The notes under the pieces were generated by a model. That model worked only from the letters and a program-made list of their open reading frames with translations. It had not been told where the DNA came from and ran no database searches. The translations under genes were made by a program, and so were the position numbers. DNA of 64,000 nt from Neobacillus sp. PS3-40 (GTDB lineage Bacteria > Bacillota > Bacilli > Bacillales > Cytobacillaceae): contig NZ_CP133266.1 of NCBI RefSeq assembly GCF_030915485.1, positions 3,662,001 through 3,726,000 on the forward strand, written 5' to 3'. Shown here piece after piece: positions 44,688 to 47,871 of the stretch. Each line of letters begins with the position of its first letter. Positions within the stretch are counted from its first letter, which is position 1.

Positions 44688-44735
44688 GAATTTTTCTTTT
44701 TAACCGATACATAATGTAATGGGTAGGTGTATATT

Positions 44736-45512
44736 TTGGGGAACATGTCTATTAAACAAATCGAAGAACAACTTGAGTCCATTGGGGAAGACTGCCATCC
44801 ATTTTTACAGAAGATAAAGGATGATAAGCGCAAAGGAGTTCAAAATCTTATTTTAAAATGGCAAAGGCAGCAAGATAAAGAAAAAAATCTGCGAAATAAA
44901 TTTGACGAAATGAATCTGTATGAAAGACAATATCGAAAACAAGGGTTTCAACTCATTGCTGGAATTGATGAGGTCGGTCGAGGTCCACTTGCTGGACCTG
45001 TTGTTGCAGCTGCTGTAATTCTACCTGAAAACTTTTTCCTGGCAGGAATTGATGATTCTAAAAAATTATCTGAAAAAAAACGGGAAGAATTTGAAGAATT
45101 AATTCAAAAGGAAGCAATTGCTATCGGCATTGCGATGATTCAACCTGCTGAAATTGATGAAATTAATATTTATGAATCGACTAAAAAGGCTATGATGGCT
45201 GCCATTTCATGTTTAGAACCGAAACCGGACTTTTTACTTATTGATGCAATGAAATTAACAACTCCTTATTCATCTGAATCAATCATTAAAGGTGATGCAA
45301 AAAGTGTATCAATAGCAGCAGCATCGATCGTTGCTAAAGTTGCTAGGGATCGACTAATGAAGGAGCTTTCAAAAAGCTACCCTTTATTTGGTTTTGAACA
45401 ACATATGGGATACGGAACGAAAGAACATATCCGAGCGATACAACAATACGGGATTACTCCTCATCACCGTAAAAGCTTTGCACCAATTAAAGATAGCATT
45501 TCTATTGAATAG
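44736..45512 (+). CDS. rnhB: Ribonuclease HII
   Basis: This about 258-residue enzyme cuts RNA in RNA-DNA hybrids and removes misincorporated ribonucleotides. It has an N-terminal helical extension of about 70 residues, then LIAGIDEVGRGPLAGPVV (catalytic Asp-Glu), DSKKLS, FLLIDAM, and the end YGTKEHIRAIQQYG. The start is uncertain: TTG 44736 has AGGTG 6 nt upstream, while GTG 44727 and ATG 44745 are alternatives. Confidence 0.93.
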   Translation: MGNMSIKQIEEQLESIGEDCHPFLQKIKDDKRKGVQNLILKWQRQQDKEKNLRNKFDEMNLYERQYRKQGFQLIAGIDEVGRGPLAGPVVAAAVILPENFFLAGIDDSKKLSEKKREEFEELIQKEAIAIGIAMIQPAEIDEINIYESTKKAMMAAISCLEPKPDFLLIDAMKLTTPYSSESIIKGDAKSVSIAAASIVAKVARDRLMKELSKSYPLFGFEQHMGYGTKEHIRAIQQYGITPHHRKSFAPIKDSISIE

Positions 45513-45575: not shown

Positions 45576-46289
45576 ATGGATCCTTTAAATTTGTTGAAAA
45601 CATTTTTAAAATTTGAGGGAAATGTTCAACCCAATATAAAATCGCTTAAAGTTGGACAAATTATAGCTGGGAAAATAATTAGGTTTTTTCCGAATCAAAC
45701 AGCTGAAATACAGATTGGATCCCAAAGACTGATCGCAAAACTTGAAGTTTCCCTTTTGGCGAATCAACAATATTGGTTTCAGGTTCAACCTGGAGATGGA
45801 AAAATTCGTTTAAAGATGATCAAGAGAAATAATGATGATAGGGTTTCATTTGATCAGCAGCCACCATTAGTATACAAAGAAAATCTAGAGGAATCACATG
45901 GTGCACTTGAGCAATTTGTTACCCAAATTCCACTTCAAACTGAAAATAGAACTTCAGAAATAACGATTCAATGGAATGGACGAAAAAAGAAGGATGGGAA
46001 AATTGATCCTAATTATTGTCGTGTCCTGTTATATCTTGATTTAGAAAATATTGGGGATACATTCGTTGATTTGCACATTCAAAATCGGATTATGTCTATT
46101 TCTATCAGCAATGAAAGGGAAGACTTGAAAATAATTGCTTCGCCGCTAATCGATTTTTTAAAAGAAAAACTTTCGAAAATGGATTACAAACTATCAGCAG
46201 TTTCGTTCGAGCATCCAACAAAAATGAAAAAAGGGGTGTTTTCATCCTTCGAGAGTACATCCTACGAAGGAGTCGATATTCGAATATGA
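45576..46289 (+). CDS. FliK-like protein (YlqG position), unknown function
   Basis: The 237-residue protein occupies the place of B. subtilis ylqG but, as I recall, is less than half its length. An N-terminal beta-rich part (KVGQIIAGKIIRFFPNQTAE, RLIAKLEVSLLANQQYWF) is followed by a C-terminal stretch, residues about 145-225, with LYLDLENIGDTFVDLHIQN and LIDFLKEKLSKMDYKLSAV, resembling the FliK C-terminal (Flg_hook) domain. AGAGGGGG precedes the ATG. It overlaps the next gene by 4 nt. Similarity is by eye only. Confidence 0.7.
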   Translation: MDPLNLLKTFLKFEGNVQPNIKSLKVGQIIAGKIIRFFPNQTAEIQIGSQRLIAKLEVSLLANQQYWFQVQPGDGKIRLKMIKRNNDDRVSFDQQPPLVYKENLEESHGALEQFVTQIPLQTENRTSEITIQWNGRKKKDGKIDPNYCRVLLYLDLENIGDTFVDLHIQNRIMSISISNEREDLKIIASPLIDFLKEKLSKMDYKLSAVSFEHPTKMKKGVFSSFESTSYEGVDIRI

Positions 46290-46579
46290 ATAAAAATGAT
46301 AGTAAACGTAAAGAAGCAGTTGCTCTCAGATATCGTGCCAATCATGATGAAACACCTCAAGTGATTGCAAAAGGCAAAGGAATAATAGCGGAAAATTTGA
46401 TTGAAAAAGCCAAAGAGCATCAAGTTCCTGTTAAGGAAGATCCATCTCTAGTAACTCTCTTATCCGAACTTAAATTAAATCAAAGTATCCCAGAAGAGTT
46501 ATACCAAGCAGTAGCAGAGGTGTTTGCATTTATTTATCACGCAGATAAACTAGCAAATCAAAACAAGAATAGAGGATAA
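46286..46579 (+). CDS. ylqH: Stand-alone FlhB C-terminal-domain-like protein (YlqH)
   Basis: The 97-residue protein resembles the part of FlhB that follows the NPTH autocleavage site: KEAVALRYRANHDETPQVIA, KGKGIIAENLIEKAKEHQVP, and SIPEELYQAVAEVFAFIYH. It has no membrane helices and no NPTH motif. The FlhB cytosolic domain switches secretion substrate in concert with FliK, so its translational coupling to a FliK-like gene is notable. The role of YlqH is unknown. Confidence 0.85.
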   Translation: MNKNDSKRKEAVALRYRANHDETPQVIAKGKGIIAENLIEKAKEHQVPVKEDPSLVTLLSELKLNQSIPEELYQAVAEVFAFIYHADKLANQNKNRG

Positions 46580-46662: not shown

Positions 46663-46710
46663 ATGAAAGCGCAGTAATTTTTGTCGAAGGTTAAAATAGG
46701 AGGATGGGAA

Positions 46711-47871
46711 ATGAATATCCATGAGTATCAAGGCAAGGAGATCCTCAGAAAATATGGGGTAATGGTCCCTAATGGAAAAGTAGCATTCACTGTAGAAGAA
46801 GCAGTTGAAGCTGCAAAAGAACTAGGAACGCAAGTATGTGTTGTAAAAGCACAAATTCACGCTGGTGGAAGAGGAAAAGCTGGCGGAGTTAAAGTGGCAA
46901 AAAATCTTGATGAAGTACGAATATATGCAAATGAAATTTTAGGGAAAACATTGGTAACACACCAAACAGGTCCAGAGGGAAAAGAAGTAAAGCGTTTGCT
47001 AATTGAAGAAGGCTGCGATATTAAAAAAGAATACTATGTTGGTTTAGTGTTAGATCGAGTAACCTCTCGTGTTGTCTTAATGGCATCTGAAGAAGGTGGA
47101 ACAGAAATTGAAGAAGTAGCAGCGAAAACACCTGAGAAAATTTTTAAAGAAGTAATCGATCCGGTGTTAGGATTAATGCCTTATCAGGCACGCCGTATTG
47201 CTCTTCGAATTAACATTCCGAAAGAATTAATGAATCAAGCAGTTAAGTTTATGATGGGTCTTTACCAGGCATATATTGAAAAAGATTGTTCTATTGCAGA
47301 AATCAACCCACTTGTTGTAACAGGTGATGGTAAAGTAATGGCACTTGATGCAAAACTTAATTTTGATGACAATGCAGTATCACGTCAAAAAGATATCGTT
47401 GCTTACCGTGATATTGAAGAAGAGGATCCAAAAGAAATTGAAGCTTCCAAATTTGATTTAAGCTATATTTCATTAGAAGGCAACATTGGCTGTATGGTAA
47501 ATGGTGCAGGTCTTGCAATGGCGACAATGGATATTGTGAAACATTACGGTGGGGACCCTGCGAATTTCCTTGATTGTGGAGGCGGTGCGACTGCTGAGAA
47601 GGTTACAGGCGCATTCAAAATTATCCTTGCTGATCCAAATGTTAAAGGGATTTTTGTTAATATCTTCGGTGGAATTATGAAATGTGATGTCATTGCAGAA
47701 GGTGTTATTGAGGCCATAAAACAAGAAGGATTGAATGTTCCACTTGTTGTACGATTGGAAGGAACAAATGTTGATGTTGGTAAGAAACTAATAGCTGAAT
47801 CAGGTTTTAATATTATTTCAGCACAATCAATGTCTGATGGAGCACAAAAAATCGTATCATTAGTAGGGTAA
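46711..47871 (+). CDS. sucC: Succinyl-CoA synthetase, beta subunit
   Basis: The 386-residue ATP-grasp subunit starts [17 protein letters not shown] and contains [16 protein letters not shown], the [15 protein letters not shown] loop, AEINPLVVT and [13 protein letters not shown]. It couples succinyl-CoA cleavage to nucleotide triphosphate formation in the TCA cycle. AGGAGGATGGG precedes the ATG at 46711. Confidence 0.96.

Follow-up and report, generated by a model that had tools for sequence, protein, structure and literature searches.

HP1575, the FlhX protein of H. pylori, is reportedly called a 'spare part' in the title of a study devoted to it. YlqH of B. subtilis is a protein which we take to be FlhX, i.e. 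a member of TIGR00789 (flhB_rel).

The mechanism by which FliK switches flagellar export has been debated for a long time. The last five residues of Salmonella FliK were described as important for switching (PMC10965912), and the C-terminal part of FliK as a core followed by a disordered tail (PMC6972891). The cytosolic C-domain of FlhB (FlhB-CCD) keeps early secretion and its FliK-dependent loss flips the switch; the last five FliK residues were proposed to interact with or destabilise FlhB-CCD (PMC13344023, 2026). The text of PMC13344023 contains no mention of FlhX or of 'paralog'. FlhX was listed among flagellar export proteins (PMC10746217), and flhX-fliK was named as a gene pair of Nitratiruptor located away from the main flagellar cluster (PMC9321776). 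In the available text of PMC11523185, the only appearance of ylqG is among the mutations of evolved clones. Literature searches returned no study of ylqG or ylqH function in Bacillus. A preliminary description of the locus had considered the function of the family undescribed, which is correct only in part, with H. pylori FlhX reportedly studied and an flhX-fliK pair in print.

Gene arrangement of the locus

The gene pair was located in the window, which comprises the whole analysed stretch of 64,000 nucleotides from Neobacillus sp. PS3-40. Two ORFs were present on the + strand, 45576-46289 (237 aa) and 46286-46579 (97 aa). They were flanked by rnhB (44727-45512) on one side and sucC (46681-47871) on the other. 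The overlapping pair had been placed between these genes in the preliminary description, and both ORFs and the ATGA overlap were found exactly there. The features were as follows.

45576-46289, + strand: ylqG-type gene for a 237-aa FliK-like protein (ORF; Flg_hook E = 0.0022; profile match to 2rrl, E = 1.2e-4)
45648-45827, + strand: N-terminal OB-like beta domain, aa 25-84 (AF2 strands 29-81, pLDDT >90 in most blocks; OB-fold matches with Z 6-8)
45906-46211, + strand: T3S4 / Flg_hook switch domain, aa 111-212 (Pfam, AF2 model, profile and fold comparison)
46269-46286, + strand: C-terminal switch tail GVDIRI-COOH, aa 232-237 (Phi-D-Phi-x-Phi ends of relatives; E. coli FliK GVDIFA; pLDDT <50)
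46286-46289, + strand: ATGA stop/start overlap of ylqG and ylqH (ORFs and sequence)
46286-46579, + strand: ylqH / flhX gene for a free-standing FlhB cytosolic C-domain of 97 aa that lacks NPTH (ORF, Pfam, TIGR00789, profile, alignment)

An AAGGAG-like stretch was located 13 bases upstream of the ylqH start, inside ylqG and over the tail codons for E-G. The -4 overlap with an upstream FliK-type gene was present in 66 of 83 FlhX copies of the sampled Bacilli. Overlap and tail were both present in 77 of the 79 named Bacillales loci. The window pair represents a spare set of flagellar export-switch parts beside rnhB, consisting of a FliK-type protein with a switch tail and a free-standing version of the FlhB domain targeted by FliK.

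The host genome held three FlhB-C copies, namely the FlhB of the fla/che operon, the FlhX of the window pair and that of another FliK-like/FlhX pair. This second pair (L005:9361-11846, C1 about 1869361-1871846) was longer, had the -4 overlap and was flanked by fliD on one side and by a DUF327 gene, flaG and fliS on the other. The canonical FliK of the host, 432 aa, was encoded in fla/che together with FlhB and ended in EALLNTEV, without a switch tail. Four FlhB-C matches were present in genome G135. At its locus L065 (3447-3761 and 5888-6184), an extra stand-alone FlhX immediately preceded a FliK-like/FlhX pair.

Domain composition of YlqG and YlqH

A FliK C-terminal-like stretch had been proposed for YlqG, and the similarity held by profile and by fold. 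The single-sequence match to Pfam Flg_hook (aa 148-213, E = 0.0022) reached 18.2 bits, which falls short of the gathering score of 29.8 and is therefore weak on its own. With the C-domain profile of the YlqG family, built from window YlqG and 45 relatives, Salmonella FliK-C (2rrl) was the top PDB match (E = 1.2e-4). Flg_hook was present in 34 of the 46 members of this set with E up to 0.01. In the AF2 model of YlqG (mean pLDDT 78.7, 52 rows), strands 29-81 made up an N-terminal beta domain, residues 111-212 formed the C-domain, and the end of the chain (220-237) was disordered. The modelled C-domain matched the PscP switch domain 5cuk with Z 6.3 (73 residues, 2.7 Å) and 2rrl with Z 6.2 (76 residues, 4.1 Å). 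The fold match was middling, and a Foldseek search with the YlqG model gave no match with E <0.001. VIA rows for YlqG were mostly OB folds, matching the N-domain. No function was read from this, since OB is a common arrangement.

The preliminary description had remarked on the shortness of YlqG, rightly so. Window YlqG has 237 aa, whereas its relatives at 77 named Bacillales loci range over 281-719 aa, the shortest of them, 281 aa, running off its contig end. The one available genome of the same genus, G344, held a YlqG-type ORF of 428 aa. The long ruler segment between N- and C-domains was absent from window YlqG. Because the relatives, including that of the same genus, are longer, the window protein has probably lost its middle.

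YlqH matched the C-terminus of Bac_export_2 (PF01312) with 2.6e-20 over 262-335 of 335 and flhB_rel (TIGR00789) with 1e-31 over positions 1-82 of 84. The latter match had 109 bits versus a cut-off of 117.35, which was exceeded in 3 of 200 Bacilli genomes, placing window YlqH below it like nearly all sampled. A YlqH profile matched FlhB 3b1s of the PDB with 3e-20, and the FlhX model of a relative matched 3b0z_B with a TM of 0.85 by target length and 1.6 Å. YlqH was aligned from A11, the equivalent of the residue right after NPTH-F/Y in FlhB, in agreement with the earlier proposal of an FlhB cytosolic domain starting right after NPTH. The NPTH positions read S6-K9 and the membrane domain was absent, leaving 97 aa in all.

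Conserved sites were compared between 83 FlhX and 21 FlhB proteins. NPTH was missing from the 83 compared FlhX, and a gap followed the LY position in 83/83. Three FlhB sites were mostly exchanged: D replaced N (21/21 FlhB) in 79/83 FlhX, V replaced A (21/21) in 62/83 and E replaced R (17/21) in 53/83. The FlhB-like motifs AP..VVAKG and the LYxxVAE helix were kept in FlhX. YlqH keeps the FlhB-CCD fold and much conserved sequence but has neither membrane part nor NPTH cleavage site. FlhX of family f18 (L026, L061, L074, L077 and L084) showed a conserved acidic C-terminal extension, about DISLDDLLQSIRNI.

The C-terminal tail of FlhX-linked FliK-type proteins

The C-terminal end Phi-D-Phi-x-Phi-COOH was present in 105 of 116 FlhX-linked FliK-type proteins (pooled), with GVDIRI in the window, and the loose form Phi-[DN]-x-x-Phi in 111 of the 116. 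Background ORFs showed the strict tail in 0/224 and the loose tail in 3/224, and canonical FliK in 16/39 and 28/39, respectively. The C-terminus of E. coli K-12 FliK is GVDIFA. Given this ending and the tail counts, the tail is, as judged from sequence, a FliK feature. What appears to be new, again on the basis of sequence, is the occurrence of this Phi-D-Phi-x-Phi tail, like that of E. coli FliK, on FlhX-linked FliK-type proteins. In the AF2 model, aa 220-237 of YlqG including the tail had pLDDT <50 and were predicted to be disordered when alone.

In Bacilli, 76 of 83 FlhX partners ended in Phi-D-Phi-x-Phi, and G preceded it in 64 of the 76. The Bacilli-locus background had the strict tail in 2/420, and one of these two is apparently a repeat reading of the second pair of its genome. 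The strict tail was missing from the partners at L021, L046, L063, L069 and L071, and no upstream ORF was called for the copies L022 and L065|3447. The true partner ORFs of L021 and L022 stayed unassigned in the ORF calls. At named Bacillales loci, the ORF calls gave no FlhX for L116, no upstream ORF for L163 and a wrong upstream ORF for L114. By eye, L116 ends in SGVDIRI and L163 in YRGVDIKI, both with ATGA. No tail was present in the family f14 partners L046, L063 and L069. Flg_hook matched L046 with 1.4e-5 and L069 with 0.11, and a search for it in the L063 partner gave no match.

The profile scan of genome contigs gave almost only Bacillales, so that other lineages were covered only by the phylum sample. 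From the remaining classes of the phylum, 40 regions yielded 38 FlhX (no FlhX ORF at L195 and L201), 35 of them with an upstream ORF (none at L199, L207 and L210). The strict tail was found in 29/35 and, by the printed tails, the loose tail in 35/35. L189, L193, L194, L202, L208 and L222 failed the strict and passed the loose form. In Bacilli, the tail glycine at -6 and the codon ends near ATGA may partly reflect a ribosome site and the overlap inside ylqG. The tail D and hydrophobic positions persisted in the other classes despite the -4 overlap being present in only 1/35.

Two further ideas on the tail were not adopted. Strand donation, in which the beta-1 strand of FlhB, absent from FlhX, would be provided by the YlqG tail, gained no support from AF2. 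In the tail-FlhX reading of L114, the tail (~residues 29-35) was unstructured with pLDDT ~55, and residues 6-13 formed a strand. L114:3900-6300 (Lentibacillus populi) is a degenerate duplication of the pair, in which the YlqG tail of the second copy reads in frame into FlhX. It was the only natural reading of this kind found. The strand test is weak and biased, yet its outcome counts against strand donation, which is not claimed. A charge swap, with R/Q in FlhB and mostly E in FlhX versus R/K at -2 of the YlqG tail, is not claimed. Among 107 clustered pairs, Fisher p was 0.01, but the mutual-information z stood at 1.8, with higher scores in other columns.

Distribution of the gene pair

Samples of 200 Bacilli genomes (class) and 149 genomes (phylum) were searched. 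TIGR00789 matched in 147 and FlhA in 151 of the 200 Bacilli. The FlhX/FlhB-positive set and the full-length-FlhA set were the same 147 genomes. The four extra FlhA-like (FHIPEP) matches, in G037, G117, G161 and G192, were weak (E 1e-21 to 1e-23). These genomes were without an FlhB-C match, and the FlhA-like match of G037 covered 330-533 of 657. FlhX presence was scored as two or more FlhB-C copies per genome, a copy count rather than a direct check. It applied to 132 of the 147 genomes with full-length FlhA and to none of the 53 Bacilli genomes without. All 80 of the 80 regions opened contained a stand-alone FlhX. Three or more FlhB-C copies were present in 33 of the 147 flagellated Bacilli genomes.

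A strong match to the YlqG C-domain profile (E up to 1.2e-14) was found in 116 of the 200 Bacilli genomes, all 116 with FlhX; 6 further genomes had weak matches. Strong YlqG was found in 0 of the 15 flagellated Bacilli genomes without FlhX and in none of the other 53. The 16 of 132 FlhX genomes without strong YlqG all belonged to family f14. In the phylum sample, TIGR00789 was present in 129 and FlhA in 128 of the 149 genomes. The single discordant genome, G221, held FliP and flagellin. The pair is flagellum-linked and occurs only in sampled genomes with flagella; none was found in a non-flagellate genome of the 200 Bacilli. It is dispensable in some lineages, because 15 of the 147 flagellated Bacilli genomes are without it.

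Proposed function and alternatives

The identities of the domains and of the tail, the gene coupling and the co-occurrence with flagella were read directly from the genomes. The preferred reading, with a probability of roughly 0.55, is that YlqG/YlqH constitutes a dedicated second FliK-C/FlhB-CCD module modulating flagellar export specificity. YlqG would be a FliK-type switch protein in which a flexible linker connects the T3S4 domain to the C-terminal switch tail, and YlqH (FlhX) a free-standing FlhB-CCD. We infer joint production of the two proteins and their association, in the manner suggested for FliK-C with FlhB-CCD; site of action and direction of effect are likewise deduced. The pair would adjust the change from early to late flagellar export, and the most plausible route is that FlhX takes up the position of FlhB-CCD or substitutes for it there.

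A dedicated partner or modulator of type III export had been one of two options in the preliminary description. Flagellar co-occurrence and the shared FliK switch tail strengthen it. Of the two outcomes that the preliminary description had named as contradicting it, missing FliK-C similarity and frequent occurrence in genomes without flagella, neither was obtained. The second host pair adjoining fliD, flaG and fliS counts in the same direction, as does the replaceability of the part, HP1575 being a 'spare part' according to the reported title. Counted against it are family f14 (16/132 FlhX genomes without strong YlqG, three partners without tail), the AF2 tail-FlhX fusion, the middling Foldseek result, the 15/147 genomes without the pair and four genomes (G180, G199, G020 and G040) described below. 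For work on binding, structure and genetics, a widespread co-inherited pair of just these two elements, lacking the membrane part and sitting outside the flagellar operon, would provide a natural system in minimal form. Some canonical FliK proteins have lost the otherwise conserved FliK tail, a loss that the study of FliK alone would miss.

The canonical FliK proteins bear on a more specific, and unlikely, version for Bacillales. Here the switch would be split: canonical FliK measures the hook and has lost its tail, YlqG provides the tail in trans, and FlhX serves as a renewable FlhB-CCD lock that YlqG delivers or removes. This fits the canonical FliK of the window's order, which had no genuine tail in 15 pair-carrying genomes read (nine and six in two readings; one chance match, LLMDAKV, among the nine). 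It also fits the contrast by pair presence in family f10. Canonical FliK ended in LIDEEV, FLNEEV and MIELEV in three genomes with the pair, the first two passing the loose form by chance, and in GIDYSV, KVDYTV and KVDYTV in three genomes without. The split does not fit G180, G199, G020 and G040, which have neither pair nor canonical FliK tail, yet FlhA, nor the many other lineages with both. In genus g6, the pair was present in G052 and absent from G180 and G199, and canonical FliK ended in LNMLT in all three. If the split were true, a switch thought to be irreversible would become adjustable or resettable.

It is similarly improbable that FlhX is a spare part only, backing up damaged or ejected FlhB-CCD, with YlqG as a chaperone or passive neighbour. 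The wording reported for HP1575 and the retained motifs AP..VVAKG and LYxxVAE agree with it. However, FlhX departs from FlhB at conserved sites (gap 83/83, D 79/83, E 53/83), and a passive neighbour leaves the strict pairing with a tail-bearing FliK unexplained.

Slightly less credit is given to FlhX as a decoy or antagonist, which would trap the YlqG (or FliK) switch tail within the cytosol and delay the switch, turning the pair into an anti-switch. FlhX is soluble, co-translated and devoid of cleavage and membrane parts, and the tail is predicted to be disordered when alone. These properties fit the dedicated export module equally, and the sign of the effect is not given by these data.

That the window copy is decaying is quite improbable. 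On this reading, YlqG would have lost ~190 residues between its two domains (237 aa here, 428 aa in G344) and may no longer act, with a second, longer pair in the host genome. However, both YlqG domains are intact, as are the tail and the ATGA overlap, the frame is open, and window FlhX still covers positions 1-82 of 84 of TIGR00789.

Reuse outside the flagellum, the other option of the preliminary description, is very improbable despite a position next to rnhB and sucC and apart from the fla/che operon, because genomes lacking flagella yielded no FlhX (200 Bacilli; 149 phylum), with 0/53 in class-sample genomes without FlhB/full-length FlhA and with FliP and flagellin in the sole discordant phylum-sample genome.

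Comparison with known systems

Like FlhX of TIGR00789, YlqH is a stand-alone FlhB C-domain covering positions 1-82 of 84; unlike it, YlqH scores 109 bits, below the curated 117.35. A pairing of FlhX with a tail-bearing FliK is not described in the available text of PMC10746217 and PMC9321776. YlqG shares the T3S4 core and the E. coli K-12-type C-terminal tail with FliK. Unlike FliK, it is encoded outside the fla/che operon, is fused to an OB-like N-domain and is without the long ruler here. The fold of the FlhB / SctU cytosolic domain is common to FlhX (model of a relative against 3b0z_B; profile against 3b1s). Unlike FlhB / SctU, YlqH has neither membrane domain nor NPTH, and FlhX differs by the gap after LY, by D in place of N and, in most cases, by E in place of R. 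The C-domain of YlqG is similar in fold to PscP (5cuk; Z 6.3 over 73 residues). PscP belongs to an injectisome ruler, whereas the genome context of YlqG is flagellar. The flhX-fliK pair of Nitratiruptor, only named and without analysis of tail, function or linkage in the available text, comprises the same two gene types and is also located apart from the main flagellar cluster (PMC9321776).
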